DNA of 64,000 bases from Tetracentron sinense (lineage: Eukaryota > Streptophyta > Magnoliopsida > Trochodendrales > Trochodendraceae), in assembly GCA_015143295.1 (NCBI GenBank), contig CM026559.1:21528826-21592825 (forward strand). Reading direction: 5' to 3'. The translations under genes and the position numbers were made by a program. This document shows positions 12,568 to 64,000 of this stretch, piece by piece. A model generated the notes under the pieces. It was not told where the DNA came from, searched no databases, and saw only the letters and a list, made by a program, of their open reading frames with translations. Position 1 is the stretch's first letter; every line of letters begins with the position of its first letter.

Positions 12568-12572
12568 ATGGC

Positions 12573-34338: not shown

Positions 34339-34343
34339 TATAC

Positions 34344-35935: not shown

Positions 35936-36179
35936 CTACTGAGCATAAAAACCCTAAGATCATACCAATTGGAGTAGGAACCAAATTGTCTACCGTTATA
36001 ACAGGATTCTGGTGAATCCGGTTATGCCCCTAAGGTTTCGACGGTCCCCTTTGAAACCCCTTAACTGTGGTTAAGAGTCACCCACCCATCCTTGTTTTAT
36101 AGAAAAAAATATTGCAAATATTAAAAATTATGTTTTTCTAAAAATTAAGGATGGGTGGGTGAATCTTAACCACAGTTCA

Positions 36180-38570: not shown

Positions 38571-38586
38571 TTCTCCCCCCCTTACA
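38571..38586 (-). other. Polypurine tract of the Tekay element
   Basis: Minus strand reads GTAAGGGGGGGAGAA directly before the 3' LTR. This is the expected plus-strand primer position. Confidence 0.8.
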
Positions 38587-38680
38587 AAAATTTCGTCCTC
38601 GAAATTTGGACAATGCGTGCTTTACAATTTAAACAACTTAGCATAACAATTTGAAACAAAATTACAAGTCATACATAAAA

Positions 38681-41600: not shown

Positions 41601-42007
41601 AGGTTTGTTACACTCAAGGCTGCGAGGCGAGCAATGTCCCTCTCTCTTAATCCTCGGAAGTGAAAAGGCTTACCCCCTTCCGGCTTGAAATTCACCATCT
41701 TCTCAAAACACGCAACATGCCCGTGATGGTTTGACAACCAATCCATCCCTAAGATGACATCAAAATCCAAGTCTTGAAAATCTAGGACGATGAGATCGGC
41801 TAACAGTTCATTCTCCCCCACTTGAACCACACTATCCCCGAATATCTTGTCTGTATCAACTGACTTGCCGAGTGGAGTTGCAATGGTCAACTCCTGCTTT
41901 AACGGAGTAGCCTCAGTCAAAAATCCCTTTGCGAAACTAGGCGACACAAAGGAGTGAGTGGATCCTGTGTCGATCAACACTCGGGCAAGACATTCGTTCA
42001 CTAACAA
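38681..42007 (-). CDS. Tekay pol polyprotein (PR-RT-RH-INT-chromodomain)
   Basis: One open frame of 1,108 residues. In order it has an aspartic protease with LIDTGS at residues 11-16; a reverse transcriptase (about 185-365) with FIDD at 331-334, the gypsy variant of the YxDD catalytic box; RNase H (about 475-590) with YSDAS at 478 and VADALS near 583; and an integrase with a zinc finger (H701 to C731/C734) and a catalytic triad fitting D764, D825 and E861. The C-terminal chromodomain (about 1056-1108, EEATWEHE) is of the Tekay/Del kind thought to steer insertion into heterochromatin. In the living element this makes, processes and integrates the DNA copy. It is separated from gag by about 120 bases. 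The high LTR identity and the long open frame suggest recent activity. It is a transposon gene, not a host gene. Confidence 0.95.
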
Positions 42008-42127
42008 AGCGCCTGTGCGATTAAGTGACTACTATTAGTAGATTTCAAACAACAAGCATCATACATAGGTAACCCTTAGTATAGAAACTCACAAAGCAAA
42101 CCATAGAAATTTTACACAATTTAAATT

Positions 42128-43401
42128 CTAGAATTCGTGCGTACCTTGCACGACATCGTCGGATGCACGTGCGTCTCTCTCGGATAAGGCAAAGACTCGG
42201 CCCTGTGTGGCTGGGCGAGGAGGCCGGGTAGACTGTGAGGCCCTCGAAGCCTGAGAAGAGCTAGGCTGAGATGTCTGCCTAATCGGGGGCCTGCTCCCCG
42301 AAGACTGAGCTGGCAACAGACGTCGGGGACAATCTCTAATCATGTGGCCCTGGTCGCCACAATGAAAACAGCCTCCTGTAGCCTTCTGACATTCCCCTGC
42401 TGGATGCCTCCTTCCACAAAGGGTGCAGACATCATGTGAATAAGTGGGAGGAGTATAACCCGTAGCCTGAGTCACTGCGGGGCGAGGAGCATACGAGGTA
42501 GCCGGGCGAAAAGCCGGTGGAGAAAAAGGGCGGGGGGCCTGTGGTGCCGAGTACATCCTCTGTGACTGAGCCGGCCCTGCGAACTGATAAGACATAGTCC
42601 TAGCTCTCTTCTCCCCCGAACTACTAGACTGTCCCTTCTCTATTCCTCTTCTCTTAAAGAACTCTTCGGAATTCGACTCGGCCAACAATGCTTTGTCCAC
42701 AACTTCTGAATATGTCTCATGTCGGAACATTGAGACACGATCCTTGAGGTAGGCCTTCAACCCCCTCTCAAATTTTTGGGCCTTCATAGCCTCGGTAGCT
42801 ATCATGTGTGGAGCAAATCGAGATAGCTCTGAGAACTTGGCTTCGTAAGCCGCTACAGACATATTACCTTGCTCCAAGGTAATAAATTCAATTTCTTTCT
42901 TTCTTTCATCCCAACCGGAAAGTATTTCTTGTAGAAAACGTCCAAGAATTCTCCCCATGTCCATTCTTGGCCTTGCCGGGTCAACTCTCGGGTCCGAAGT
43001 GCAGACTTCCACCAATGGTCGGCCTCGCCTTCAAGCATAAAGGCAGCCCATGTGACCCTCTCTACTTCCGTAGGTGCCAAAACCGAGAATATCTTCTCAA
43101 GTTGCCGAATCCAACCCTCGGCAACAAGTGGATCAATGCTTCCACAAAAAGTTGGAGGCCTCATCCTCCGGAAAGCTTCTATCCCGGCTTGGGCTCGGTT
43201 AGGAGGAGCCGGTATAAGTGCCGCATTAGGCGGGGTGGCCGGTTGCCTTGCCGCCAACATAGCCAAAGTCTCGGCTATGGATGCGAATGCCTGGGCAAAG
43301 TCGGGTTGATCATCACCCGATGGAGCATCACCTCCATTACCCCTCGTGTTGTACCCGCGACCCCGAGTATTGCGTCTCATGATTTCTCCTGAGAACGACA
43401 A
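42128..43401 (-). pseudogene. Tekay gag
   Basis: The minus-strand coding region has an arginine/glycine-rich start (MRRNTRGRGYNTRG), the retrotransposon gag core (WIRQLEKIFSV, AAFMLEGEADHWW, WGEFLDVFYKKYFP) and a cysteine-rich tail ending in a CCHC knuckle, CFHCGDQGHMIRDC. Gag would form the particle shell and bind RNA. The region appears interrupted about once, so it is scored as a fossil. A partial second copy lies at 46250-47391. Confidence 0.85.
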
Positions 43402-43691
43402 TACAACATGAGTCTAACTTGGATACGCATTTAGTACAATTTCGCAATTCACTTAATACATATTCATCAAGCACATTGAATAAGTACAACACAAATAATG
43501 TACACATGGTATATAACACAATAGCATAACATACAATCCGTGTTCCTAGTGTAGGACTCTATGTTCGGTTGAAGTTCAACCCATTTTGACTAAGACTAAC
43601 TTGTTAGTCTATACTTGGAATACAACTCTCTAAGGTGATTCTAATACCTTGTTCAATCATCTAAGTGACCCTAGGGACTCTAATGCCTAGA

Positions 43692-43703
43692 GCTCTGATA
43701 CCA
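43692..43703 (-). other. Primer-binding site (iMet tRNA)
   Basis: Minus strand reads TGGTATCAGAGC four bases after the 5' LTR end. This is the standard plant initiator-Met tRNA site. A copy lies at 47682-47693 in the duplicated segment. Confidence 0.9.
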
Positions 43704-43707
43704 CTTC

Positions 43708-46107
43708 TGTCACGCCCCAAAATACCCCCTAGGAGTTAAGGGATACTTTAGAGGTGACTACGTGTACCTGTCAACCATCCTGTAATGCAAGAGGCTAAAC
43801 ATAACATAATACAATGATAATCAGAGCGCGGAACTAAACATAAGTGCGAAAGCATAAGCCAACTTTTTCTTTTCTTTTATTACTCCATATAGTATTCCAA
43901 GTTAACATATACTAAATACAATCAAAGTAAAGGTGGACATGCCCACCTATCAAAATACAAAAAGGAACTTTCTAACACTGTCCTCTCAACAGTAGTCGAG
44001 GTATGGCCACACATCCAAGTCCCCATCCTCTTGAGACTGCCATGGGATAGGTGGCTCCCTCTCCTCTACGTACTCCTCCTCGACCCAAGGCTCGGGGTCA
44101 AGGACATCCACAGTACCTGCCGACATAAAAGTACGGCTGAGCATGGAATCCTCAGCGAGTACAAACTACTAGCTAACCATAACAATAGCGAAAGCATAAC
44201 AACAGTGAGCAATACAAGATATTAATTTAAAGCAATAGTGAAAGCATAAGATACATAGCCATATCTTGACATGCGTGTATGAATGCAAAAACCTCGGTAA
44301 AACTCATGTCTCGGAAACCCTTTTCGTGTCTCGGTCAAATCATGTATGTGTATCGTGTCTTGTCTTGTACTTCATGTCTTGATTTGTTCTTGACTTGTAT
44401 ACTTGTGAGCCAGAGGCTAGCACCCTTCCTTGGGCTACCAACCTCCTTGTCATGTTCTTGTTCCATTTCTCTTGTGAGCCAGAGGCTAGCACCCTTCCTT
44501 GGGCTACCAACCTCCTTGTCATGTTCTTGTTTCATTTCTCTTGTGAGCCAGAGGCTAGCACCCTTCCTTGGGCTACCAAACTCCTTGTCATGTTCTTGTT
44601 TCATTTCTCTTGTGAGCCAGAGGCTAGCACCCTTCCTGGGGCTACCAACCTCCTTGTCATGTTCTTGTTTCATTTCTCTTGTGAGCCAGAGGCTAGCACC
44701 CTTCCTTGGGCTACCAACCTCCTTGTCATGTTCTTGATTCATCATATACAATTACAATCTTGGAAAACCCGGTTTCATGCATGCATGTGTGGTGTGTGTA
44801 GCACTTGTAATATCATGATGAAAATATGACATGAAGAGTAGTGTATAACAATTCAATCCACAGTATAACCATATAGGAATCTGAGTAATCTACGTGGCAT
44901 TTGAATAGTTCATCATTCATAAGAACACATGCGTAAGGCCTACTTTCATTTTCTTCATTTATGTCATTTATTCCTAGTTTAGGCATTTTGTCAAACACAT
45001 AACATGCAAGGTTCCTTAATGGTTCATCTTCTTCTTTTAGTGCCTACTTTCCATCCAAAAATCAAGGTATGTTCATTATTGGTAAAATGCCCATCCTCCA
45101 TTTTCCATTCTTCACACCACACATTCATACACCATACATTCGGCATCCCATCGCCTCAATCAACCTCTCATCCATGCATCCACACCATTTTTCCTCACCT
45201 TGTTTATATTTAGTGAATATGATACATTTCATAAGGGAGAAATACATAGTAGCAAAATCATATAGTTCATAGAAAAACTAGGTTATTGTTAGGGGAAGTT
45301 AGTAGAGTGTACTAACCTTGAATCAAGGCTTGATCCTTGGTAGGGGCCTTGATTGAAGCTCCAACTTGAAAGATGAAGCCTTTGCTTGAAAGAAGCTTGA
45401 GTTGGGGAAGAAACCCCTTTCAAAAACGTGCTTGGGTTGCTGCCCTAGCTTGGAGAATGAGTCCCCACACGAGCTTGAGCCTTGAACTTGAAGCAACTCG
45501 AGTTGGGGTGAGCTAGGGTTCTTAAACCCCTTTGATTCCTTCTCCAAATGGAAAACCCTAGTTGCAAATCCCCTTCTCCTTTCTCTCTATCTCTCAAAAT
45601 CCCTTAAGTTCTGTGAATGAAGCCCTAAAGGCTCGAGCAAGCCTTAAGGAGAAAGGGTTTAACCCCCAAAAGACGAAAAAGCCCTTAATGAAAATTCTGA
45701 AAAACACGAAGACCAAGCGATCGGTGGTTATGACCGATCGATCGGTTGCCTACCGAGCGATCGGTGTTTATGACCGATCGACCGGTCAAAAACTCACTCT
45801 CTGGAAAATTTCCCCATACAAAATTTCTGACCGTGCGATAGCTACCGATTGATCGGTTATGGACCGATCGATCGCTGACTGGACCGAGCGATCGGTCTTC
45901 TGTATGTCTGGACTGTTTTGACCATATCTTTTGATTCGCTCGTCGGATTTTGACGATTCAACTTGCGTTGGGTTCGTCTTTCGAAAACGAACATTTCTGA
46001 CGTTTCGGAATTTCCGATTTCTCCCTTATTTATTAATTTGACTACAAAAACGGCCAATTAGCTACGAAGGTGCCATTCATTAAAGATGAAAAGTCCGGGG
46101 TGCTACA
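43708..46107 (-). repeat. 5' LTR of the Tekay element
   Basis: 2,400 bases, nearly identical to 36180-38570 and to 47698-50098. Immediately followed by GTTCA and the right flank of the target MITE. Confidence 0.92.
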
Positions 46108-46252
46108 GTTCAGGGGTGTCAAAATGGACACGTAGCGACCCCAGGCATAACTCGGATTCGCCAAGTCCAGTTACAACCATAGAGGATTTGGTTCAATTGG
46201 AGTATCAAAATGGTCCAAATTGTAGAACAGCCATAGCTTCATTGCAAAGGAA
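46108..46252. other. Duplicated copy of the insertion's right flank
   Basis: About 140 bases identical to 50099-50240: GTTCA, the remaining MITE arm and unit B sequence up to CATTGCAAA. It then joins internal gag sequence at a point where both parents share CTGA. This shows that the segment to the right was duplicated together with host flank after insertion. Confidence 0.85.
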
Positions 46253-49200
46253 CTGACTGAGATGTCTGCCTAATCGGGGGCCTGCTCCCCGAAGACTGAG
46301 CTGGCAACAGACGTCGGGGACAATCTCTAATCATGTGGCCCTGGTCGCCACAATGAAAACAGCCTCCTGTAGCCTTCTGACATTCCCCTGCTGGATGCCT
46401 CCTTCCACAAAGGGTGCAGACATCATGTGAATAAGTGGGAGGAGTATAACCCGTAGCCTGAGTCACTGCGGGGCGAGGAGCATACGAGGTAGCCGGGCGA
46501 AAAGCCGGTGGAGAAAAAGGGCGGGGGCCTGTGGTGCCGAGTACATCCTCTGTGACTGAGCCGGCCCTGCGAACTGATAAGACATAGTCCTAGCTCTCTT
46601 CTCCCCCGAACTACTAGACTGTCCCTTCTCTATTCCTCTTCTCTTAAAGAACTCTTCGGAATTCGACTCGGCCAACAATGCTTTGTCCACAACTTCTGAA
46701 TATGTCTCATGTCGGAACATTGAGACACGATCCTTGAGGTAGGCCTTCAACCCCCTCTCAAATTTTTGGGCCTTCATAGCCTCGGTAGCTATCATGTGTG
46801 GAGCAAATCGAGATAGCTCTGAGAACTTGGCTTCGTAAGCCGCTACAGACATATTACCTTGCTCCAAGGTAATAAATTCAATTTCTTTCTTTTCTTTCAT
46901 CCCAACCGGAAAGTATTTCTTGTAGAAAACGTCCAAGAATTCTCCCCATGTCCATTCTTGGCCTTGCCGGGTCAACTCTCGGGTCCGAAGTGCAGACTTC
47001 CACCAATGGTCGGCCTCGCCTTCAAGCATAAAGGCAGCCCATGTGACCCTCTCTACTTCCGTAGGTGCCAAACCGAGAATATCTTCTCAAGTTGCCGAAT
47101 CCAACCCTCGGCAACAAGTGGATCAATGCTTCCACAAAAAGTTGGAGGCCTCATCCTCCGGAAAGCTTCTATCCCGGCTTGGGCTCGGTTAGGAGGAGCC
47201 GGTATAAGTGCCGCATTAGGCGGGGTGGCCGGTTGCCTTGCCGCCAACATAGCCAAAGTCTCGGCTATGGATGCGAATGCCTGGGCAAAGTCGGGTTGAT
47301 CATCACCCGATGGAGCATCACCTCCATTACCCCTCGTGTTGTACCCGCGACCCCGAGTATTGCGTCTCATGATTTCTCCTGAGAACGACAATACAACATG
47401 AGTCTAACTTGGATACGCATTTAGTACAATTTCGCAATTCACTTAATACATATTCATCAAGCACATTGAATAAGTACAACACAAATAATGTACACATGGT
47501 ATATAACACAATAGCATAACATACAATCCGTGTTCCTAGTGTAGGACTCTATGTTCGGTTGAAGTTCAACCCATTTTGACTAAGACTAACTTGTTAGTCT
47601 ATACTTGGAATACAACTCTCTAAGGTGATTCTAATACCTTGTTCAATCATCTAAGTGACCCTAGGGACTCTAATGCCTAGAGCTCTGATACCACTTCTGT
47701 CACGCCCCAAAATACCCCCTAGGAGTTAAGGGATACTTTAGAGGTGACTACGTGTACCTGTCAACCATCCTGTAATGCAAGAGGCTAAACATAACATAAT
47801 ACAATGATAATCAGAGCGCGGAACTAAACATAAGTGCGAAAGCATAAGCCAACTTTTTCTTTTCTTTTATTACTCCATATAGTATTCCAAGTTAACATAT
47901 ACTAAATACAATCAAAGTAAAGGTGGACATGCCCACCTATCAAAATACAAAAAGGAACTTTCTAACACTGTCCTCTCAACAGTAGTCGAGGTATGGCCAC
48001 ACATCCAAGTCCCCATCCTCTTGAGACTGCCATGGGATAGGTGGCTCCCTCTCCTCTACGTACTCCTCCTCGACCCAAGGCTCGGGGTCAAGGACATCCA
48101 CAGTACCTGCCGACATAAAAGTACGGCTGAGCATGGAATCCTCAGCGAGTACAAACTACTAGCTAACCATAACAATAGCGAAAGCATAACAACAGTGAGC
48201 AATACAAGATATTAATTTAAAGCAATAGTGAAAGCATAAGATACATAGCCATATCTTGACATGCGTGTATGAATGCAAAAACCTCGGTAAAACTCATGTC
48301 TCGGAAACCCTTTTCGTGTCTCGGTCAAATCATGTATGTGTATCGTGTCTTGTCTTGTACTTCATGTCTTGATTTGTTCTTGACTTGTATACTTGTGAGC
48401 CAGAGGCTAGCACCCTTCCTTGGGCTACCAACCTCCTTGTCATGTTCTTGTTCCATTTCTCTTGTGAGCCAGAGGCTAGCACCCTTCCTTGGGCTACCAA
48501 CCTCCTTGTCATGTTCTTGTTTCATTTCTCTTGTGAGCCAGAGGCTAGCACCCTTCCTTGGGCTACCAAACTCCTTGTCATGTTCTTGTTTCATTTCTCT
48601 TGTGAGCCAGAGGCTAGCACCCTTCCTGGGGCTACCAACCTCCTTGTCATGTTCTTGTTTCATTTCTCTTGTGAGCCAGAGGCTAGCACCCTTCCTTGGG
48701 CTACCAACCTCCTTGTCATGTTCTTGATTCATCATATACAATTACAATCTTGGAAAACCCGGTTTCATGCATGCATGTGTGGTGTGTGTAGCACTTGTAA
48801 TATCATGATGAAAATATGACATGAAGAGTAGTGTATAACAATTCAATCCACAGTATAACCATATAGGAATCTGAGTAATCTACGTGGCATTTGAATAGTT
48901 CATCATTCATAAGAACACATGCGTAAGGCCTACTTTCATTTTCTTCATTTATGTCATTTATTCCTAGTTTAGGCATTTTGTCAAACACATAACATGCAAG
49001 GTTCCTTAATGGTTCATCTTCTTCTTTTTAGTGCCTACTTTCCATCCAAAAATCAAGGTATGTTCATTATTGGTGAAATGCCCATCCTCCATTTTCCATT
49101 CTTCACACCACACATTCATACACCATACATTCGGCATCCCATCGCCTCAATCAACCTCTCATCCATGCATCCACACCATTTTTCCTCACCTTGTTTATAT

Positions 49201-50098
49201 TTAGTGAATATGATACATTTCATAAGGGAGAAATACATAGTAGCAAAATCATATAGTTCATAGAAAAACTAGGTTATTGTTAGGGGAAGTTAGTAGAGTG
49301 TACTAACCTTGAATCAAGGCTTGATCCTTGGTAGGGGCCTTGATTGAAGCTCCAACTTGAAAGATGAAGCCTTTGCTTGAAAGAAGCTTGAGTTGGGGAA
49401 GAAACCCCTTTCAAAAACGTGCTTGGGTTGCTGCCCTAGCTTGGAGAATGAGTCCCCACACGAGCTTGAGCCTTGAACTTGAAGCAACTCGAGTTGGGGT
49501 GAGCTAGGGTTCTTAAACCCCTTTGATTCCTTCTCCAAATGGAAAACCCTAGTTGCAAATCCCCTTCTCCTTTCTCTCTATCTCTCAAAATCCCTTAAGT
49601 TCTGTGAATGAAGCCCTAAAGGCTCGAGCAAGCCTTAAGGAGAAAGGGTTTAACCCCCAAAAGACGAAAAAGCCCTTAATGAAAATTCTGAAAAACACGA
49701 AGACCAAGCGATCGGTGGTTATGACCGATCGATCGGTTGCCTACCGAGCGATCGGTGTTTATGACCGATCGACCGGTCAAAAACTCACTCTCTGGAAAAT
49801 TTCCCCATACAAAATTTCTGACCGTGCGATAGCTACCGATTGATCGGTTATGGACCGATCGATCGCTGACTGGACCGAGCGATCGGTCTTCTGTATGTCT
49901 GGACTGTTTTGACCATATCTTTTGATTCGCTCGTCGGATTTTGACGATTCAACTTGCGTTGGGTTCGTCTTTCGAAAACGAACATTTCTGACGTTTCGGA
50001 ATTTCCGATTTCTCCCTTATTTATTAATTTGACTACAAAAACGGCCAATTAGCTACGAAGGTGCCATTCATTAAAGATGAAAAGTCCGGGGTGCTACA
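46253..50098 (-). mobile_element. Tandem-duplicated part of the Tekay element (partial gag + LTR)
   Basis: 46262 onward matches 42271 onward with a constant offset of 3,990-3,991 bases, through partial gag (46253-47391), leader, primer site and a complete LTR (47698-50098), into the flank. It is a direct repeat of about 3.99 kb and nearly identical, so very recent. It lacks pol and is not an independent insertion. The gag part is a fossil with about two or three breaks. Confidence 0.88.
47698..50098 (-). repeat. Third Tekay LTR, product of the tandem duplication
   Basis: 2,401 bases; shares the unit pattern and nearly all bases with 43708-46107. Followed by GTTCA at 50099-50103, which pairs with 36175-36179 as the outer target-site repeat. 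Confidence 0.9.
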
Positions 50099-50103
50099 GT
50101 TCA

Positions 50104-50168
50104 GGGGTGTCAAAATGGACACGTAGCGACCCCAGGCATAACTCGGATTCGCCAAGTCCAGTTACAAC
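50104..50168. mobile_element. Right arm of the foldback MITE, unit B
   Basis: Completes the MITE begun at 35995, interrupted by the Tekay insertion. Ends CCAGTTACAAC, as in unit A's CCAGTTATAAC. Confidence 0.75.
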
Positions 50169-53133
50169 CATAGAGGATTTGGTTCAATTGGAGTATCAAA
50201 ATGGTCCAAATTGTAGAACAGCCATAGCTTCATTGCAAAATGAACTGACTGACAGATACGGTCCGTGTCTCAGACCGAGTGCTAAGCTATCAATTTGGGC
50301 CCCAAAATGATACTGAATCAAGTGGCACCAAAGGAAAGAGCATTTAGATCCAGAAACCTAGCGTAGACTAGTGCACCACATAGAATAAAAGAGATCGAAA
50401 TGACCATGAAAAAAAATAGAAACCTCGGATCAGATGAGCAAGTATTCAATGAAGAATGTCAAGAAGTTGTAAGCTACAAAGACACTAAAAAACTACGGCA
50501 ATAGATAGTTTTTTAGTTCTAGAACAAGACGCATGCAGGCATGAGAATGGGATTGCAAAATCTTTGTTAATATTTGAAAGAGGTATCTGTCAATCCACAT
50601 GCTTTCCATAATGTCAATTCTCTTTCTACCTTGACAAACTCAAATTCTAATTGAGACGAAGACAGTTTCTAAAATGTCTCCAGGTATTTGTCTATCAGCT
50701 TCTACCTGTTTTGATTGGTTTCCAAAAATCCTTCACCTTGTGAAAATTGATCAATACTCGGAGGAAATTCATAATTATCTTCTATAAATGAAAGGTTAAA
50801 ATTATTATCTTCTATAAATGGAAAGTAGTAATAAGTATTCTCTCTAAATGGAAAGTAGTAATAATTATCTTCTCTAAATGGAAAATTATCTTTCCATTAG
50901 GTGGCAGGATGATTTTGTGCTCAAATGGTTTCTTCTAAATGCTGAGTATTCTACCAGTCTATAAATCTTCCAAATGAAATGGAGCTAGATGACTCTAATA
51001 AAGTCTCTTTCGGTTGGGCTTAATCTTATTCTGTCTTCTATCATTTCTGTTTCTTCCAACTCATATGGAGGGGTGGGGGTTACGTTTGGTTTTCTCTACC
51101 AAAAAGACAAGATGGAGGAGAATCCTGGCGTGCACGATCGGATCAGTGATTTACCAATGGTTGTCTCATTTGGAGGGAACTCTGAAGCAAAGCAGGACAA
51201 TCAGGGGTGCAACGAAACACGACAACGGTTGATCACTTCAGATTGATTGATTGAAGCATAAGTAGCAATACAATTAGGACTGGACTGGCAAAAATGAGAT
51301 AATAGAGCCACTTATTTGGCATGAGCATAAGCACCCTTAGAGACATCCCCTACTATCTTCAAAAAGTCCATCTTGCTTCATTAACAGTCTCCAAAACAGT
51401 GGGATGAAGACGCCATGGGCGTCCTTCTTGTGGTTATAATTTACAGTGGAGGAAGGAAGGAGGGTAGCAATGAAACCTCCAACTCGTGGTGTATGAACAT
51501 GGATTTGGAGTTCCCCAATGAGAATTCCTAAAAGGAAGCTGATCCACGCTCAAATCAATTTGGGGCATGTTGGTTCTCGGTTTTGATGCAGTGATTAAAT
51601 AAATTTCCATGCCCGGTCTAAGATAAAAGCCATGCAAATTTGTTGCGATCGTGGCCGTGACATCATTCGAGGCTTCACGATGGAGATACCGTCTGATGAG
51701 ATTTTGTTGAGATTTCCTTTCGAAAATCTTTTGGATTGCAAAATGAATGCTTGCCGAAATAGCAGAAGGAGTGAAGAGAAAAAAAAAAAAAAACCTCATT
51801 CCTTATGGTTTGTGAGTTCTTTTTTTAGGTTGAAGGAAGAGTTAATAGAGGTCTTAAATTTAAATTTAAAGGTGTTTGCTTGGAATGCTGTGAATTACCA
51901 TAACGCATAGCCTATTTTTATTAAGCATTGAAGCTCTCTTTGGCAAATCGTGAGCTAGAAAAAGAAAGTTGAAGATTCCTCATTAAATGCATAATACTGA
52001 AAAGCAAAGAATGGTTAGGAGTGGTCTTTCTAATTTTTGAGAGCTTCAACTCATTTTGCCTTTTAACTCTCTATTCTTTGAGAGCTTAGTCCAAGTTGGG
52101 CCGTATACTATAAAGCCAAGCTAAGTCACGGGCCTTTTAATGTGGTAGTTGCGTATCAAGTCTAGCCAGGCTGAGTTGAGCGGAACCATAATTTCAAGTA
52201 GACTCAAAACAAAGTTGGGCCTTTGCCGTGTGAAACATGCACACATTGTTGCTGTCACATTTTTTGCAATATTGGATTTGTTATAAATCTGATTTCATAT
52301 TTGTTTGAACCGTCATGCTCCTGAAAATAATGGGAACAAAGTAATGATTGGGTTGCAGTTAAAAAATGAAAATTTTGAGTACACATCTATTACGATAACG
52401 TTACAAACAAATGGTCAGATTTTTCGAAGCCCAAACTCTTTATATTATCAATTGATTACTTGTGAAATTATATGCTATGTTTATAGCCATTTATGATTCC
52501 ATGACATGCTAAATTGCAATAGCTATAAATGGTTGGACACAAGTAAGAGAATAAAACTGATTATATGAAATTTGGAGAGTCAGATAACCTACTTTAAATT
52601 ATTTTAAGATATGTGATTGTTTAGCTATGATAAAACTAAATAATTTTTAAAATAATAAAATTAGGACATGGATTAAGGAGATGTGCCTTATTGCTTTTAT
52701 CATAAACAATAAGATATATAAAAAAAAAAATACAAAAAATTTAGATCTTGATAATAATGTGATAATAGAATTGAGGAAAGCTGAAAATTCTTTTCCTTTT
52801 CAATTCTGATTAATGTGGGGGTTTAAAAAAAAAATCAAGATCTAAATGAAATTAGTATTTATAATCTCAGTGTACCATCTTAAAATGAAGGAGATAATGA
52901 AAGGTAGAATGAAATGCTAGTGTAATGCGTAATTTGCCCGAATATTGTATCTGCAATTGGAAAAATAAGTATATACTAAAGTAAGCCTAGTAATGAGCAT
53001 TGGACGGCAATTAGCAGAGTTCTTGAAAAAAAAAGAAAACTATTGAATATAAAGTTACTAATTAGCTTGAGGTGATGCACTGTAGGAGAATAACATTCTC
53101 TAAGTTCCATCCTATGGTGTGGATAATGCATCC
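50169..53133. other. Unit B non-coding region left of the solo LTR
   Basis: Matches 632-1683 and then jumps, at about 51220, to the equivalent of 5085 in unit A. It continues to the solo LTR without the MITE present in unit A. The minus frame 51434-51799 is the counterpart of the unidentified unit A frame at 5352-5603. No gene is recognised. Confidence 0.5.
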
Positions 53134-55859
53134 CGTAAGCTCCCAATTTTTTACACCCTGCTTAACCATGGTTAATCACCCTTAACCATGGTCGTCCACA
53201 GCTAAGTCCCTAACCAAACCCTAGACCTAATTCTAGGTGAACCACAGGCCAAACCCTAGCTAAACCCTAGGTATACCCTAAGCCCTAGCTAAAACCCTAG
53301 GTATGCCCCAAACCCTAGCTATACCCTATATCCTAAATCCTACGCAAACCCCAAAACCAAAACCATTTGGGCTCAAGGCCCATTAGCAATCCCTAAACCT
53401 AAACCCTAGGCTAACCCTAGCTAAACCCTAGGTCTAACTCTAAGTAAGCCCTAGACATAGCCCTAGCCTAAACCCTAGCCGAACCTAGTTATGAGTCCCA
53501 TGGGCTCAAGGCCCATTAACCAAGCCAAACCCCCAAAACCGTGAGCCAAGGCCTTTGGTGGGCCCAAACTTGGGCCCACAAACACTCTAGGGTCCACTTT
53601 GGTGGGTTCCACCTTCAAAATTCAAAAATCAGGTGCCAAATACCCTAAATAGGCAAAGCCTATCTTGCTTTCGACACAAGTGTGCGAGGGCATGACCAAT
53701 TTTAGCAAAATCAGGGATTGGCGGTAAATGGATTACGGCCATTCCCATATTGCACTGTTATGGGAATGACGGTAATCAGTTCAGCGCCATTCCCTGTTTC
53801 TGCAAGTTTGCGCATCAGCAGCTCTTGCACCACCTTGGGCCTGCTCCCATTGTCCCCCGACGCCATCCTAAATGCCCATACTACCCCTGTGGCATTCCCT
53901 TCCATTTTATAAAGCTACCCTCACCCTCCACGGTTTGGGCATTCCTTTTTTCTCTAGTGAAACCCTGTTTCATTTCTTCTAGCCTTCACCGTTCATCTCA
54001 GTCGAGTCCTGGACTTCCCTTAACATCTCAGACCTCCCCAAAGTCAACCCAAGCCACCCCAGGCCCTTCACCAATCCTACAATAGTGCACCACCGTGGAG
54101 AGCAAGCTTGGGTAGGGAATCCCCTACCCCTTTTTCATTTTCTGCAAAAAATTAATGTAAGGACCCTTGGTCCCTATTTCTTGTTTGGTTGTTGTATCTT
54201 TCATTCTTAGCCAAGGACAGAGGTCCTCCCGCTTTAACCATAGGCGTGGGGGAACCCCCTTGAGGCCTAACTCGGGTTAATAGCCCCCTAGCGTGCATGG
54301 TTAGTCCCCACAGGGTCTAGGGGTCCCTCAGTCTATGAGGGAAACCTTATACCCCAGTTGGCACGGCCCCCGTAGGGGAAAATCATTTTTCTGGGCAAAT
54401 CTCTAAATGGCGGTGGAATATCTACCGCCATTTTTAATGTTCTCTATAACCAGCCTCTTAACCCTAGTTAGTTGAGGCCCTGGTCAGTTCCAGGGCCATG
54501 GTTAGGTTGCCTTGACCCTTGGCTATACCCTTGCAAAATTTTAGACCCTAACTCAACCCTTAACCAGGGTTAGTTTGGCTTTAAACCAAGTCAGTCATCC
54601 TAGCAGTAAACTATTTACCGCCAGACCAGAAAACCAAAGCTTTCAGGTTGGCGGTAATATGTTTACCGCCAATACAGGCTTTCTTGGCAGTGTCTTTGGG
54701 CCCCCTATGGGGCTCACACCCCTCATACTTTTGGGCCCACACCAGGCCCATTGGATTCCTTGCACTCCAGGCTATCTATCATTGGTTTTGTTTTTCCCTG
54801 GGTTAGTCCTAACCTCAGTTAAAACACCTGCAAAATTGGTTTAAAATATGATAGAATGGTGGTAATCCGATTAGCTCCATTTTTTATTTTCATTTTTAAT
54901 GGGCTTTGTGCGGGACCCAGATCTGGTAGGAGGCCATTCTAGGCCCTGCCATACCCTCCGGGCCCATTGTTGACTTAACTAGACACTTAACCAAGGTTAA
55001 AACTACCTTGGGTTAACTTTTAACCATGGTTAAGTACCCCTTAATCCCAAAAATTTTAGAAAAAGCATAACAAAATCAGAAATATTCCTTGGATCCTAGA
55101 AATGTCCTCCGTGACCATTTTCACTTTGGTTAGACTTCTTAACCATGGTTAAACCCCATGTCTGGTTAACTTTTAACCATAGTTAAGTATTTCTTAACCA
55201 ACAAAAAATCTAGAAAAATCAGGAAAAATATAAAAAGACAAAAAAAATTAGTTCCTAGACTTTTTACCATGGTTAGTAGCCCTAACAATGGTTAACCCCC
55301 ATTTAACCCCGGTTAGCAAACCGTAACCTTGGTCAAACTCCTTTTTGGGCCTACCGGGCCTTAACCCTAGTCTACCGGACTAACCCTAAGCCCACCGGGC
55401 TCATAACTTGCACTTGACTACCCTTAGTCAGCTAAACCCTAATCTACCGAACTAGCTTGTTAGCCACCCTTGGTGCACATACACACACCCCCTAGCCTTA
55501 GCACGGGCTCATGCTAGAACTATGCTCGGTCTGATCTCACCTCTATGTGAGTATGTAGGCAACCCAACCTGGGTTCGACCCTAGTTAGCTCTTCCTTCTT
55601 AGATTAGTATCACTTTAAACACTTAGTCATTTTTATGAAACTTGACATTAATTAGCTTAATCTTAGGGAGTAGGGAACCATTGAGAAATGGAAGCCTCGG
55701 GGTGCCTAACACCTTTCCTGGACTTAACCGAATCACTTACCTGGATCTTAATCGCAGACTAAGACCTTATCCAACTTCCTGAGGACTTATCCCTCTTGAA
55801 TGAATAGGTGGCAACTCAAAACCCGTGAGATTTTTAGGGAGTAAAATCCCGTGTTCACA
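53134..55859 (+). mobile_element. Solo LTR of a Tat/Ogre-like gypsy element, unit B
   Basis: Orthologue of 7347-10031, 2,726 bases, with the same AACCCTAG-rich and TTAACCATGGTTAA-rich U3, the same TATAAAG region near 53908, and an end GTGTTCACA before CATAG. It carries a short extra segment near 54175-54230 absent from unit A. Confidence 0.7.
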
Positions 55860-57777
55860 CATAGGATATGTGATGTTTAGAGATTGAGGATTTTCTCTTA
55901 ATGAGATCTATAGCTCTTTTGAGTGGGATATATAGTCACATAGATATCCTTGATAGACTCACCTTTATAATTGTATGTTAAGGAGACATACAAGACATAG
56001 TGTATCTTAACTAGAGTTAGAGACTCTTAATATCATGGTCTAGACTTTGCCATTATATTATAAGAATGTAAAATAATGGCTAGGCCTCATTTTCAGATGA
56101 GATGATATTTGCAAATGAATTTTGTTTCACTAACAAGAGTGAATCAAACTCATGAAATTATGATTATACATGATTTATCTTTTTGATGAATGTGAAAATC
56201 ATAAGGAATATAGTTTCTAGTTCATTACTAGAAATAATAATATATATGATTTCAATACTAGAAAGTGTGAAGTACCATAAATTTTATGCGGGGGAAGCTA
56301 TCATTTCTACACGTTGTATGATTAAAATAGCTTAAGCAAGACTCTGTATGAGGTATTAAAAAACAAAAAAAAAAACTTTGCATATTTGGAAGGGTGGGGG
56401 TATCTTGCTAAGTGGCACAATTTGATTGCTTTTGTTAGTCATGTTAAAACATATACCGTGCTCAAGTGAGGAAGATGGGAAAATTAGACTTGGGTAAATA
56501 GCTAAAGGAGTGTGGCTATCTATTGTTATCGGTTCCTTAACCGACAAATTTGATAAGTGTCTATATGTGTATATAATAGGTTTCCAAGTAGCCTAGTAAA
56601 ACATTTGTTTATATGTCAATGATATGTTATGAGAATAAACCTAGAGTTTACTTATAACCTAGAATTATGAAAATTATATGTCAATGATTTAGTCATATAA
56701 ATTTGACATGGTAGAAACAAATGTAAATTTGGTTGTAATAACATGAATTTATATATTTGAGGATATTATTATCTTTATGAGATCAAAATTTAAAGTGAAT
56801 TTATTCAGTCTTGTTGGTGGTGATATCTCTTGGAAATCATTCAAGTGGACAAATCTCATTTTACTATAAAACTTGAATTTGCATGCTTGTAGAGTGGAGA
56901 TGAAAAGAAGGTGAATGGTTTAGAATCTTATTTGTTGCAAAAATAAGACTAAGATCAACTTTGGAAAAGAATTATATCTATAATGAGAATCTTGACATAT
57001 ACGTCAAATGAAGTATTATGCTAGTCAGTTTACAAGTGAATATCATGTATATGGTTGTATTGCAGATGATTATCTTGTAGGCGATTATCCTATATATTTT
57101 TATCCTATAGGTGGTTAGTTAATTACTCTAAGAGAGTAATTTCAGTGCGGATTCGTTAATTGAGTGGACTAGATGATAAATAAACATCGAGGGGGGGGTG
57201 AGGCTTAAGCCTATTACATGAGTGGAAGTGATGGCAACCCAACCTATGTGAGTGGAGATCCCAGGAAGTAGGTTCAATGGATAAAAACAAGTCACTGGAC
57301 CATTCGATGAAAGTACTATCATATTTGATAGTCCCTCCCTATGGTGTAGATAGTGCTAACTGTAACAGTGTGAGGTTGAATTAAACTGTTAATGTATACA
57401 TATCCTTTATAGGTGGTGTGTTTAGTTACAGTACACACTTGATAGATTCATCTTTATGTGTGTAGAAGTGGGCCACTTATGAGAATTCAGACAAGTTCTC
57501 TAGACCACTCATGAAAATCCAGGTAGGGTGCAAGGCCGAAAAGTAGCAAACTGTTAGAACTCATCTGATATTGAGAATATTGTATGTGTGGCATGCACAA
57601 CCGATTTACAATAAAGACGTTTGGTTCAAAGAATATTATTTCACCAAATTCCTGTAAATCCTGTCTGGCTTATACTAAGTATTGATTCAAAATCCATTAC
57701 ACATCAATACCAATGCACTTCATTTTCATGCCTACCCAACTCGTTTGTTTTTTTAAAATTTGTATCATGTAGGTGAT
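55860..57777. other. 3' interior of the LARD-like element, unit B
   Basis: Counterpart of 10032-11950 with the same landmarks. No coding motif is visible. Confidence 0.5.
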
Positions 57778-58394
57778 TGTTGGATTTATTTTAAATTTGT
57801 GATTCAAATTTTAATGTCTTTAAAATTTTTAATTTTGTAACTATTTTAAAAAAAATTTAAATGACTTTTATTTTTTGTAACTCATTTCATTAGTGGGTTG
57901 TTTCATGGGTTATCAATGCTCATTATCATCATGGTAGTAGAGAAATCTCTATTATAAAAGGGGTTTAATCTCTAAGGTTTCTTGTAAGGAAGGTTTTCAT
58001 CTCTAAGATTTTTGTGGAGAAAAGAGGGTCTTCTCATTTTTATCTTTTATATTTTGAGTTGAGTTTTCTTGAGTTGGGTGCCATATCAAAAGTTCATTAG
58101 TGAGTCTAATTTGCGAGTGCACGCTATTAGACCATGATTGATAAGCTTGGAGATCGGCCACCATAACCCGTTTGCATCAAGGGAGATACTCCAAGGGGGG
58201 CGAAATCGGTCATAAGGACAACGATTTTAGTATCATGCCTCAGTCGAAATTCTAATCCATAAGTTTCTTTACTTCTTATATTTTTCAGGATTTTGTTAAA
58301 TTGATATTGACAAAATGCTTTTGTTTTATATGCAATCTTTAAATTTCATTTCCATATTTGTTAGAATGTTCAATAATCTCTATTTCTTACAACA
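57778..58394 (+). repeat. 3' LTR of the LARD-like element, unit B
   Basis: 617 bases, TGTTGGATTTATTTTAAATT to ACAACA, followed by ATGGC at 58395. Unlike unit A there is no 5' partner in unit B. Confidence 0.75.
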
Positions 58395-58399
58395 ATGGC

Positions 58400-59802
58400 A
58401 AGAAAAAATTTCTATTAGAGCGACCCATGAATAAAAACTCCTAGAAAATGACAGGAGAATCAGAGTGCGGATATCATACTTTCAAATATCAAATGTGCAT
58501 ACTTTTCAAAACATATTCTTCACTTTGCTTTCTTTAGAAACCATAAACTTTTACAAGCTTCTTTATGCCTTCTTTAAAAACCATAAAATTTTAAAAGCTT
58601 CTTTATGTTTTTTACTTTATAAGTATCATCTTTCAGATACTTTACACACAATTTATTATGAGAGCGTACTTTCAATACTTGACTAGTGCCCGGACTATAA
58701 TGTAAACTAGCATCCTTCATATACTTTAGGCGTGCCTAGCAACTGTACCTGGTCTGAGTATACTAGCACTCTTAACCAACCACTCCACTGGCATCTTTGT
58801 ACATCATTATACTTGGAATCAGATGACTAGTGCCCGGACAGTAATGGAATGGAACACTAGCATCCTCCCAATACTTTCACTTTTCCCTTTATTCATCTTG
58901 GTTACTTTACTTTCCGGATATCCGTACTTATTAAAAAACCCGATCATGATATACAAGTGTTCATATGGCAATTGTGAGTGACATAGTAGACAAAGAATTC
59001 AATTAAACACATAGCAATACTTCTTCAATTTCATCCGTAGCAATAGCATATGCATTTACACATGTTAAGCTCATAATTTCATCAGTTCCATATGTTTTTT
59101 TTATCAAAACCATACATGTCATCTTATTTTTCATAATTTAAATCATAATAAGGTTAACTAATAGAAAGTATCTACCTTACAAGGCTGATTCCATGCGGTC
59201 TATAACTTGAGAAAGACTTTGGGAAGCAAAACCAAGCTCCGCCTTGATCACTAGCAAGAATCCTTGAAAACCCTAGCTTTTCTCTCTCTATTTCTAAAAG
59301 ATCTCTCTTAGAATGTGGTAAACCCTAACCCCACGAAAATGAGGTTTATATAGGGTTTTTGTTTGCCAAAACCCTTAAACACCCTCCAAAATCTGTCAAA
59401 AACATAAAATAGGTCGGCTAAGGCAAAAATGCAGAGGAGCGGTCGACCAGTCTTTGGAGCGGTCGACCGCTCAGCTACACACCTTCTGGAAAAAAATCCC
59501 ATACTAAAAACTACAATATCCGGTTGACCGGTTGGAGGAGCGATCGACCGGTTGGTCAAGCGGGCGACCGGTTTGGTGTGTTTTTGCATACTTTGGAGGA
59601 GCGGTCACCCATCCGCTAAGCGGATTAACATTTTCTGGTTAAAGGAAGGCAACACCAAACTCATTCACACAGTCAGACCTAAGGTTACTGCTAGGGTGCC
59701 ATAAGGGCTAACCCACTCAACCACTCTAAAAGGCCCTGACCAATGGAGGGTTGTTGGACCCTTATACACCACTATGAAGTCAAGTATCCAAGCGACATGG
59801 GA
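58400..59802 (-). repeat. Gypsy-LTR-like relic, unit B (continuous copy)
   Basis: Uninterrupted equivalent of 12573-12931 plus 34344-35400. It has the TAGTGCCCGGAC blocks at 58685 and 58830 and the palindrome cluster at 59440-59575 (GGTCGACCGC, GGTTGACCGG, GATCGACCGG). Unit A's insertion point TATAC is single here near 58759. It ends at the CACTA element. Confidence 0.5.
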
Positions 59803-60185
59803 CACTACAAAACTTGAGCTTTTTTACGGCGGTTCTAAACCGCTGTACTTTATACAATTACCGCTGTTATAATGTATCACAGCGGTAAGTTGACCCGTCG
59901 AAGAATATGTTGCCGGGGATTCCTATTGCGGTGGGTACTGACGGCGATTCATCAGCACTGGCGTATTATATCAATACATTACGGCGGTTACTTACCGCCG
60001 TAATTTTCTTCCGCCGTCCTTTATTGATTCTATCACGGCGTTCGTCACCGCCGTTATATGTCAAAAATCTACGGTAGTTAAAACCGCAGTAATATATTAC
60101 GGCGGTTGCAACCGCCGTATTATTAATTTAATCAATTAAATTATTATTATATGCTACGGCGGTCAAAATCGCCGCCATATTGAAA
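59803..60185. repeat. CACTA terminal and subterminal repeats
   Basis: About a dozen copies of (T)ACGGCGGT or its complement, many paired into short hairpins, for example TTACGGCGGTTACTTACCGC near 59973 and TTACGGCGGTTGCAACCGCC near 60098. Such subterminal motifs bind the transposon-encoded TNPA-like protein in known CACTA elements. Binding here is inferred. Confidence 0.8.
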
Positions 60186-60629
60186 TATTTTTTTTAAAAT
60201 AATTTATTTTTGCAAAAATTTGGTTTTTTTCTCCCTGTACTATCTGTACATGTGAGCAATATATAATATAAATAAACATGTATTGTACCTGTAACAATAT
60301 CTAATACCAACTAAGAATAAAAAATTCATGTAATTAAAAAAATGCCTCGAACAAGGAATATCAAAATTATATATACATGCCCATAAAAGTGTTGTCATAA
60401 AAAGTATACATAATGAAAAAGTAAAAAAAAGAAACAAAAAGTAGCCATCTAACTCCCGCCTGGCGATAGTTGAAAACCCGATATGTGCGTGCTACCGGCT
60501 CCCTCCTACAAAAAAAAAAAATATACACAATTTATTAATCTTTTTGTAAATGAGAAAATTTGAGAATGTAATAATTAATAAATATGCAAAGATCCAAACT
60601 CATCTCAAAATATTAATAGTTTGCAGTAT
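60186..60629. other. AT-rich CACTA interior
   Basis: No gene or repeat array is recognised. A minus frame at 60240-60437 is hydrophobic by composition and has no family signature. Confidence 0.4.
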
Positions 60630-62060
60630 TACATCGGCCTAAACCTACATCATCCCGCCATTTCCAAACCGGGGGTCGGATTTCGATCCCATTTCTTCTA
60701 ATGCTTATATTTCAGTACATTCTAAGTGTTGGAGTTGGTTTTGAGCGAATCCGAGGCCGTATGCCCGATATGGGGGCCGAGACGGTCGAAATCCATACTT
60801 AGATACAATACTTCAGCCTAAACCTACATCGTCCCGCCATTTCCAAACCGGGGGTCGGATTTCGATCCGATTTCTTCTAACACGTGTATTTCAGTACATC
60901 CTAAGTGTTGGAGTTGGTTTCGAGCGAATTCGAGGCCCTATGCCCGATATGGGGGCCGAAACGGCCGAAATCCATACTTGGATACTATACTTCGGCCTAA
61001 ACGTACATCGTCCCGCCATTTCCAAACCGGGGGTTGGATTTTGATCCCGTTTCTTCTAACGCGTGTATTTCAGTATATCCTAAGTGTTGGAGTTGGTTTC
61101 TAGCGAGTCTAAGGCCGTATGCTCGATTGAGCGCCGAGACGGCCGAAATCCATACTTGGATACTATACTTCAGCCTAAACCTACATCGTCCCGCCATTTC
61201 CAAACCAGGGCTTGGATTTCGATCCTGTTTCTTTTAATGCTTGTATTTCAGTATATCCTAAGTGTTGGAGTTGGTTTCGAGCGAATCTGAGGCCGTATGC
61301 CCGATATGGGCGCCGAGACGGCCGAAATCGATACTTGGATACTATACTTCGGCCTAAACCTACATCGTCCCGCCATTTCCAAACCGGGGGTCAGATTTCG
61401 ATCCCATTTTTTCTAACACATGTATTTTAGTACATCCTAAGTGTTGGAGTTGGTTTCGAGCGAATCCGATGCCCGATATGGGGATTGAGACGGCCGAAAT
61501 CCATACTTGGATACTATACTTCGGCCTAAACCTATATCGTCCCGCCATTTCCAAACCGGGGGTCGGATTTCGATCCCGTTTCTTCTAACGCGTGTATTTC
61601 AGTACATCCTAAGTGTTAGAGTTGGTTTTGAGCGAATTCGAGGCTCTATGCTCGATATGGGGGCCGAGACGACCGAATCCAACCTTGGATACTATACTTT
61701 AGCCTAAACTTACATTGTCCCGCCATTTCCAAACCGGGGGTCGGATTTCGATCCCGTTTCTTCTAACGCGTGTATTTCAGTATATCCTACGTGTTGGAGT
61801 TGGTTTCGAGCGAATTCGAGGCTGTATGCCTGATATGGGGGCCGAGACGGTCGAAATCCATACTTGGATACTATACTTTGGCCTAAACCTATATCGTCCC
61901 ACCATTTCCAAATCGGGGGTTAGATTTTGATCCCGTTTCTTCTAACGCGTGTATTTTAGTACATCCTAAGTGTTGGAGTTGGTTTTGAGCGAATCCGAGG
62001 CCGTATGCCTAATATGGGGGCTGAGACACCCGAAATCCATACTTAGATTCTATACTTCGG
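60630..62060 (+). repeat. 178-base satellite array inside the CACTA element
   Basis: Eight units anchored by CCCGCCATTTCCAAACCGGG at 60654, 60833, 61012, 61190, 61369, 61541, 61719 and 61898. Spacing is 178-179 except one of 172. Each continues with GGATTTCGATCCCGTTTCTT, GTGTTGGAGTTGG, GCCCGATATGGGGGCCGAGA and CGAAATCCATACTTGGATAC. A decayed unit ends near 62075, and diverged fragments (GTGTTGGAGTT...GACACCGA) occur at 63236 and 62670. The open frames of 60-72 aa on both strands are by-products. Confidence 0.9.
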
Positions 62061-62160
62061 CCGAAATCCATATTTGGTTTCAGTACTAGCACTACCACTA
62101 CCATCACTCATCCACCACCAATAGATCCACCACTAACGCACCACCACCCAGCAAATCCTG

Positions 62161-62456
62161 CACTACTTATTACAACCGCATTTATGGAAGATTATACTTC
62201 ATAAATTTTCTTACTAAATGACCCTTGCAAGGTTAGGAATGTCCTCTTTCTTGGGCCGCTCATACGGGCACTCTTTACAATAAAAGGTCCGATGATGTTG
62301 AGGCTTGTGATTCCTAGATATACATTCTTTCAGAACATTTTTCTGGACCAGGCATTCACGTGCGCATGTACACGTAATCGATGATGATAACATACGGTGA
62401 CCAGAACAATACTTATACAATATTATTCACCTTTCAATTATGTCATTAACATCGTG
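62161..62456 (-). pseudogene. SUVR4-like pre-SET fragment, left arm of an inverted repeat
   Basis: The longest minus frame (62214-62420) contains LSSSITCTCARE, ECISRNHKPQHHRTFYCKECP and KKEDIP. This order matches the pre-SET zinc-binding region of plant SUVR1/2/4-type histone H3K9 methyltransferases, where CACARE and FYCKxCPxER precede CKGHLxRKFIKECW and CGNRVV. In a neighbouring frame the continuation CKGHLVRKF is still readable, so the fragment is frameshifted and ends in stops. The stretch normally between CARE and the ECIS region (TGGEFAYT in family members) is missing, as it is in the right arm. No SET domain is present. It cannot make an enzyme; it is a captured gene piece in a CACTA element. 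Confidence 0.8.
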
Positions 62457-62861
62457 GAGGAATCTGTACTACGTACTGAAGGACCACCAACATACCTGAA
62501 TTTGAATAGGCTGAAAATTTGGATTCATTTCTCGACTTATCCCTTTCACTAGTACCATTTGTGACAACTTCATTTGTCTATCCATTCGAAGAACTATCTG
62601 GAATTCAAAAATTTCCGATTTGAGCGACTATGTCTTCCACTAATTTTATACCTGGATTTAGACTAGGTTCTTGGAAGTCAGCCCGATTTGGGCACCGAGA
62701 TGTCATTTCTTCTATCTTTGAATAGTTTAGATGACCTTCATCCCAAAAAGGAAGTTGTCGGGAACGGTAATGGAAATAGGGATAAGAAGAGAACGACATG
62801 ACAAAGTTCAGGTTATTCAAATTCACGTAGTTTGGTGGTTGTTCAGTAACACGGAACCCGC
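62457..62861. other. Spacer between the SUVR-like inverted arms
   Basis: 405 bases. A minus frame (62605-62826, 73 aa, containing YFHYRSRQLPFWDEGHLNYS) is open, but I do not recognise it. A diverged satellite piece (CCCGATTTGGGCACCGAGA) lies near 62680. The spacer could be the loop of a hairpin transcript. Confidence 0.5.
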
Positions 62862-63200
62862 CACGATGTTAACGACATAACCACATGCCAATATTGTTGT
62901 TCACGTTGTTTTGTTCATTGTATGTCATCATCATCCATGTCGTGTGCATGCGCACGTGAAGGTCTGGGCAAGGACGAGGTTCGAAAGAATCTATATTTAT
63001 GAATCGCGAACCTCAACATCACCAGACTTTTTATTGTAAAGAGTGTCCGCATGAGCAGTCTAAGAATGAGGACATTCCTGACCCCTGTAAGGGTCATTTA
63101 GTAAGAAAATTTATCAAATATCTTCTTCCATAAATGCGGTTGTAATAAACAGTGCCGGAACCGGGTGGTACATCGAGGCATAACATGCAATCTGCAAGTC
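62862..63200 (+). pseudogene. SUVR4-like pre-SET fragment, right arm of an inverted repeat
   Basis: Reading on the plus strand in changing frames, it shows CCSRCF, SCACARE, then EPQHHQTFYCKECPHEQSKN, EDIPDPCKGHLVRKFIK and KCGCNKQCRNRVVHRGITCN followed by LQV. These are the cysteine-rich pre-SET core and the first SET residues of SUVR4-type methyltransferases, whose family form is KCGC-x-x-QCGNRVVQRGI-x-C-x-LQV. The arm reaches further into the SET start than the left arm. Frameshifts and stops show it is not functional. Both arms share the same departure just after KFIK (CTTCCATAAATGCGG-type), so they descend from one captured fragment that was later inverted and duplicated. Confidence 0.85.
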
Positions 63201-63358
63201 AAAGTTCATCCTTGTTCTGAATTTAGTGTTAGCTAGTGTTGGAGTTATATCTGCACATTTTGATACCTGATTTGGACACCGAAAAGACGAATTCCGGATC
63301 TGGAAGCTAACCCTTATGTTTTAACCGTAGGAAATCTCCAATTAATCTGACTAAATCT

Positions 63359-63930
63359 CAGATTTGTAGAATATAGTGTTCCAACTCACGAAAGTGAGGT
63401 ATCTCTATCACTAACACATGCTAAGCCAATCACATATATTGCAGATTTTGCAAGGTATAGAGTCCAACTCACAAAAGTAAGGTTCATCCTTCACTAACAT
63501 ACTAACTAAATAGGTATAAGATTCAGATTTTGCAAGGTAAAGTATTCCAACTTATGAAAATGAGGTATTTTTCCATTACTAGCATACTAACTAAATAGGT
63601 CTAAGATTCAGATTTTGCAAGGTAAAGTGTTCCAAATTATGAAAATGAGGTATTTTTCCATTACTAACATACTAACTAAATAGGTCTAAGATTCAGATTT
63701 TGCAAGGTAAAGTGTTCCCTAGTAATGAAAATGAGGTATTTCCATTACTAACATACTAACTAGATATGTCTAAGATTCAGATTTTGTAAGGTAAAGTGTT
63801 CCAAATTATGAAAATGAGGTATTTCCATTACTAACATACTAATTAAATAGGTCTAAGAGTCAGATTTGCAGAGTAAAGTGTTCGAAGGGCCAAAAATGAG
63901 GTATGTCCATTACTTACATACTTAACTAAA
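63359..63930 (+). repeat. 84-base tandem array in the CACTA element
   Basis: About seven units anchored by CAGATTTTGCAAGGTAAAGT at 63359, 63444, 63524, 63609, 63694, 63778 and 63861 (spacing 80-85). Each holds GAAAATGAGGTATTTCCATT and ACATACTAACTAAATAGGTC. Non-coding. Confidence 0.85.
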
Positions 63931-64000
63931 TAGAAAATAAAATATTTAAAATTAACATTTACCTACTCCGACGCGTGTGGTGCTGTCGAAGGCTCACCTG

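Follow-up and report, generated by a model that had tools for sequence, protein, structure and literature searches.

A stretch of 64,000 nucleotides from Tetracentron sinense (contig CM026559.1, positions 21,528,826 to 21,592,825 of the forward strand), referred to here as the window, was analyzed, and its right-hand end was found to carry a CACTA transposon that holds, as an inverted repeat, a broken piece of a SUVR4-type histone methyltransferase gene. The inverted repeat, its SUVR similarity and its CACTA context were all confirmed. When the window was compared with itself by blastn, a single inverted high-scoring pair was obtained, in which positions 62156-62575 matched 63159-62747 over 424 columns with 77.8% identity (E 6e-66). 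The left arm (62156-62575, 420 nt) and the right arm (62747-63159, 413 nt) are separated by a spacer of 171 nt (62576-62746). In the global alignment of the arms, 323 of the 412 ungapped columns were identical, leaving 89 mismatched sites and 9 gap columns, which corresponds to a Kimura two-parameter distance (K2P) of 0.257. The outer portion of the arms was more similar (184/221 columns) than the inner portion (139/200; Fisher p 0.001). The original prediction, made from the letters of the sequence, had described two opposed arms of about 295 bases around a spacer of 405; the opposed layout was borne out by the self-comparison, whereas the sizes were not, and the better conserved outer part may be the cause of the shorter estimate.

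The left arm carries the gene sense on the minus strand, with SUVR similarity clear by eye at about 62156-62430, and the path of the frameshift-tolerant aligner covered 62136-62574. The right arm carries the gene sense on the plus strand, with SUVR similarity from about 62895, and in this copy the similarity extends beyond the arm to about 63200 as a single-copy fragment on the plus strand (63160-63200, the pre-SET end, CRNRVVHRGITCNLQV) found by frameshift-tolerant alignment. According to the arm alignment, the longest perfect pairing with the left arm is a run of 26 bp at 63089-63114, within the block encoding KGHLVRKFI, and the second is a run of 25 bp at 63124-63148, within the block encoding KCGCNK. 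A stretch rich in CCACCA and CACTAC (62090-62160) adjoins the left arm where its likeness to the right arm stops.

The transposon itself occupies 59803-64000 of the window and begins with the 5' terminus CACTACAAAA at 59803. The upstream flank (58759-59803) has an uninterrupted copy at 34339-35403, and the blastn match ends where CACTACAAAA starts, with the first C in common; the trinucleotide GGA directly precedes the terminus. The identification as a CACTA transposon, which the original prediction had placed from 62161, thus stands with respect to the 5' terminus, and the start of the element was moved about 2.4 kb upstream. The 3' terminus was not seen in the window: GTAGTG was absent after position 50000, hence from 59803-64000, and TTGTAGTG was found nowhere in the 64 kb. 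Three 16-mers drawn from the sequence to the right of the empty site occur at that place alone, and among the blastn matches listed, the single one linking this right-hand sequence to the neighbourhood of the element joins 35427-35526 to 59607-59707, which is upstream of the terminus. These boundaries suggest that the element most likely runs beyond the end of the window.

As determined by 8-mer counting and the repeat families D7, D11 and D13, the terminus is followed by subterminal ACGGCGGT/ACCGCCGT repeats (59803-60181), with seven exact 8-mer copies that begin within 59826-60156, in both orientations and nowhere else in the 64 kb. The element was assigned to the CACTA (CMC/EnSpm) superfamily on the basis of the CACTA terminus at the border and the subterminal repeats in both orientations. 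Two tandem arrays flank the inverted repeat, one on each side: a 179-bp unit in 8.1 copies within the element (60630-62066), and an 85-bp unit on the far side (63442-63933). The Pfam scan for a transposase took in six of the 12 frames offered by 59803-60640 plus 63160-64000, where two unrelated sub-threshold matches appeared, and all six frames of 62100-63300, and found none; 60641-62099, which is mostly array, lay outside the scan. A captured SUVR piece and one terminus lie in the window, and the CACTA lineage is probably non-autonomous and Pack-CACTA-like. An Rfam search of 59800-64000 (E up to 0.5) gave three matches, all below the gathering score and none within the inverted repeat. The CACTA subterminal palindromes at 60057-60125 matched Rfam MIR2629 (26.5 versus 60 bits gathering, E 0.002), and the MIR2629 family itself may be derived from CACTA ends.

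Read on the plus strand in the right arm and on the minus strand in the left arm, the repeat yields, through stops and frameshifts, the cysteine-rich pre-SET sequence of a SUVR protein. Frameshift-tolerant alignment to the pre-SET region of AtSUVR4, for which a reference sequence not drawn from a database entry was used in all SUVR4 alignments, gave scores of 247 (62747-63250, plus) and 190 (62100-62600, minus). As controls, 300 dinucleotide shuffles of each arm reached at most 77 and 78, 200 protein shuffles for each arm at most 83 and 87, and 400 random 504-nt stretches from positions 1-59000 of the window at most 70. In Pfam the complete SUVR4 reference gave SET and WIYLD, and in the PDB a 177-residue part of it matched chains of the EHMT, SUVH and SUV39 types. 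Against 100 protein shuffles each, the z scores of SUVR4 were 22.7 and 15.7 for the two arms, as opposed to -0.4 to 4.6 for SUVH4, SUVH6, SUVH9 and EHMT1 (letters from the PDB), which argues that the donor is a SUVR4-type gene, a SUVR and not a SUVH or EHMT. This comparison covered SUVR4, SUVH4/6/9 and EHMT1 and left out SUVR1, 2, 3 and 5, and SUVR1, 2 and 4 are not told apart by it. The earlier description of both arms as broken, SUVR4-like pre-SET pieces therefore agrees with the alignments.

Profile and structure searches added little to this assignment. By Pfam, neither the six frames of 62100-63300 nor five peptides, each a read-through or a partial translation, showed a Pre-SET domain; for the peptides only DUF1989 came up, below the cut-off (E 0.067). 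As the complete SUVR4 reference likewise gave no Pre-SET hit at 1e-3, this negative result says little. SET and WIYLD domains gave no Pfam hit in the same six of six frames, and, with stops and shifts in both arms, the copies are gene fragments only. When the right copy was searched against the PDB with phmmer, all eight matches were methyltransferases acting on lysine 9 of histone H3 (H3K9); they were weak (E 0.056 to 0.89) and confined to the last 23-25 residues, the opening 23 residues of the query having been translated in the wrong frame. The stretch KCGCNKQCRNRVVHRGITCNLQV, from the region 63160-63200, matched EHMT1 and DIM-5 weakly (E 0.056-0.069). With the right copy in the right frame, DIM-5 was best at E 0.28 and nanobodies followed at 0.30, so that the PDB search alone is no proof of a SUVR match; the left piece gave no match. 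An exon end in phase 0 after LQ near 63198 is possible.

Neither the inner ends of the arms nor the spacer could be shown to resemble the N-terminal part of SUVR4 (z 0.01 on the left side, 2.55 on the right). As this upstream match was not established, two candidates were dropped, namely a deletion of a few dozen codons, common to both arms, following a DVNDIT match, and a splice site at CAG/GTATGTT in the left arm. The peptide CKGHLVRKFIK was not found in print in the open-licence full texts searched, and the virus and prokaryote contig collections yielded 2 and 8 pattern stretches, none of them confirmed as a parent gene or sister element.

Both arms are broken by stops and frameshifts, and part of this damage is common to them. 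In the alignment to the SUVR4 reference, both lack 10 codons between the CARE and YCKECP blocks, although the placement of this gap is ambiguous, and both take a +1 step (one extra base) between FIK (FMK in the left arm) and KCGC. Each arm has, in addition, single-base indels not found in the other. Since the 10-codon loss and the +1 shift are common to the arms, a single broken ancestor most simply accounts for both.

The potential of the region to form a hairpin, which had also been predicted, was upheld by RNA folding. The predicted fold of 62156-63159 had an energy of -503.3 kcal/mol for the plus strand and -476.7 kcal/mol for the minus strand; 60 dinucleotide shuffles per strand gave means of -238.7 (sd 8.5) and -241.0 (sd 9.5), respectively, and hence z scores of about -31 and -25. 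The folds contained 342 (plus) and 332 (minus) inter-arm pairs, with longest helices of 29 and 32 bp, and according to this model RNA from either strand would form one long stem. Given transcription, such a stem could be cut by plant Dicers. G.U strand bias was not observed, as transitions giving G.U numbered 24 for plus-strand RNA and 22 for minus-strand RNA (p 0.88), and no perfect pairing run was exceptional, the longest (26 nt) being reached in 408 of 5000 permutations. The G.U and run-length tests thus gave no sign of pairing kept by selection.

The divergence of the arms was set against that of the flank copies, which differ at 46 of 1045 sites (K2P 0.0455); a block further upstream has a K2P of 0.081. 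With an arm K2P of 0.257, the inverted repeat appears older than the CACTA insertion, probably several times older, and was probably already in the element that jumped. As the hairpin would predate the insertion, sister copies should exist.

On this evidence, the anatomy and history of the locus and its lack of a selected function are probably best accounted for by a decayed gene capture, inverted within a CACTA lineage. A CACTA lineage would have captured DNA from a SUVR4-type gene, out of the part that codes for the pre-SET region, and the captured piece was probably already damaged when it became a pair in opposite orientation, because both arms carry the same lesions. The inverted pair would then have travelled with the element, and this copy would later have inserted at 59803. 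If transcribed, the repeat would form the long stem of about 340 inter-arm pairs, from which Dicers might release heterogeneous small RNAs; these would mainly feed the silencing of the CACTA family itself, and the parent SUVR gene would be affected in trans weakly at most. Some output of small interfering RNAs (siRNAs), mostly concerning the transposon, is given slightly less than even odds, and, beside this and the small share given to suppression of a silencing gene, the rest of the probability belongs to an inert relic. An unselected by-product of capture, which the original prediction had named as its second option, is the best fit to the data, and the interpretation given in that prediction as a whole is partly supported.

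Several observations weigh against this explanation. Of the 40 codons in the segment 62999-63118, 39 were counted, and these show differences between the arms at 8 of about 21 synonymous sites and at 9 of about 96 nonsynonymous sites (pS 0.39, pN 0.09, Fisher p 0.0026). Such an excess is unexpected, because free decay of both arms after one inversion predicts none, and it hints at two gene copies that may have diverged while coding. The segment was singled out afterwards, and two other segments were without an excess (pS 0.26, pN 0.28; pS 0.14, pN 0.23); a fourth, of 8 codons, was too small (one synonymous change, no nonsynonymous change). For all four segments pooled, 15/54 synonymous and 37/225 nonsynonymous differences were counted (p 0.078), and third positions accounted for 15 of the 35 differences over three pre-SET segments (p 0.15). 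The greater similarity of the outer portion could likewise reflect something kept. Furthermore, the relative ages presume that rates are equal and that the flank copies have undergone no conversion, the SUVR4 reference did not come from a database entry, and another transposon could be nested in the CACTA element, given that the 3' end of the element lies outside the window.

A role of the repeat as a source of self-silencing, in which occasional transcription of the hairpin yields siRNAs that guide methylation to the CACTA family and perhaps also to the donor gene, is tentatively entertained, at slightly less than an evenly balanced prospect. It is a step in the mechanism of the decayed capture and is compatible with it, not exclusive of it. 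In maize, small RNA density is described as greater in regions of low folding energy, 1.5-fold in CACTA elements, although the same study gives a smaller small RNA skew for non-autonomous than for autonomous CACTA elements (0.34 versus 0.44). A review describes captured pieces in maize Helitrons, Pack-MULEs and Sireviruses as siRNA sources able to silence related transposons and the donor.

Doubtful, and ranked below self-silencing, is an origin in which two diverged SUVR-derived copies were joined head to head, in place of one piece duplicated inversely. For MIR824 and MIR846, an origin by such a union of related duplicates has been proposed (PMC1790633), and here the outer ends of the two copies are unlike: the right one reaches about 63200, while the left arm ends at 62156. 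The synonymous excess in one 40-codon pre-SET segment would suit such a join; it is, however, post hoc, missing from two other segments and weak once all four are pooled (p 0.078). The common 10-codon loss and the common +1 shift point instead to one broken ancestor, as in the decayed capture.

The leading suggestion of the original prediction, a transposon-borne suppressor of a chromatin silencer, found no support and is improbable. Under this suggestion, small RNAs from the stem would lower expression of a host SUVR gene and weaken transposon silencing, as with miR820 and OsDRM2 in rice. SUVR2 is described as functioning in transcriptional gene silencing at loci of RNA-directed DNA methylation and at others, and SUVR4 as laying down H3K9me2/me3; the stem is strong, and its perfect 26-bp run lies within the block encoding CKGHLVRKFIK. 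The repeat is nevertheless without G.U strand bias (24 vs 22) and without an exceptional perfect run, and, with arms 22% diverged, many 21-nt duplexes would be mismatched. Since the hairpin appears older than the insertion, a hairpin of this kind would have been copied as part of the family.

By analogy, the closest precedent for such a suppressor is from the same superfamily. Rice miR820 lies in CACTA elements, and its fold-back resembles OsDRM2 into the second exon and third intron; miR820 cleaves OsDRM2 mRNA, and co-evolution and a higher copy number in BB genomes are described (PMC3459959). The present locus resembles it in belonging to the CACTA superfamily and in having within it a fold-back, similar to a piece of a host silencing gene, that is copied with the transposon, the 3' end of the element being unseen here. 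The donor there is a DNA methyltransferase, OsDRM2, whereas here it is a SUVR-type histone methyltransferase; a 22/24-nt microRNA and mRNA cleavage were shown there, whereas here any small RNA and its target are hypothetical; and here the stem is long, with arms that are diverged and broken. In maize, the arms of Mu killer derive from a transposon and silence that same transposon. The analogy with Mu killer drawn earlier holds for the inverted duplication able to yield a hairpin RNA, but it is looser than that with miR820, because the arms here match a host SUVR gene and not a transposon gene. If small RNAs from the stem did lower a SUVR gene, transposons would have found the same counter-move twice, namely a piece of a silencing gene made into a hairpin, once against DNA methylation (miR820/OsDRM2) and once against a histone-methylation enzyme; if no small RNAs are made, the locus is another decayed gene capture. 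A second, independent invention of the miR820 kind, in which a mobile CACTA-borne SUVR hairpin weakens transposon silencing, is conceivable but unlikely.

Two further systems resemble parts of the locus. CACTA elements that capture gene pieces are described as Pack-CACTA elements and for soybean Tgm-Express1 (PMC8903248, PMC1947982), and they likewise join a CACTA terminus to a captured host gene fragment; they differ from the present element, in which one gene piece lies twice, inverted, and only the 5' terminus is in the window. In the Arabidopsis inverted-duplication MIRNA and siRNA loci MIR161, MIR163 and MIR824, the arms resemble one protein-coding gene family, as both arms do here, and large new fold-backs are thought to go through a stage of heterogeneous siRNAs (PMC1790633); the present repeat differs in lying inside a transposon, adjoining a CACTA terminus. 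Among open-licence papers, none was found with both SUVR4 and CACTA, none of the five that combine CACTA with SUVR- words dealt with this subject, judged by title and the opening of the abstract, and only a review matched SUVR4 with inverted repeat, transposon and small RNA.

A chance resemblance or a sequencing or assembly artefact, in place of a real gene-derived inverted repeat, is scarcely credible: palindromic joins do occur in some assemblies, but the arms here are 22% diverged with independent indels, unlike an assembly fold-back, and neither the self-match (E 6e-66) nor the SUVR z scores of 22.7 and 15.7 suit chance.

Elsewhere in the window, other repeats were recorded. A Ty3/gypsy-type retrotransposon lies on the minus strand within 36169-50252, with a polyprotein at 38684-42028 in which reverse transcriptase, RNase H and integrase zinc-binding domains were matched and chromodomain and integrase-core matches were sub-threshold. 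Around it, a 2.4-kb block is present in three copies (36169, 43700 and 47690) that are about 99% alike, and 42266-46260 is tandemly repeated at 46257-50252 with 99.8% identity; this arrangement has the look of unequal exchange, very recent in date, involving blocks that resemble long terminal repeats. Long blocks at 6170-12937 and 51954-58764 are about 92-93% alike and belong to a repeat mosaic that includes the flank copy at 34339-35403. A tandem array with a 43-bp unit in about 19 copies was observed at 22802-23633.
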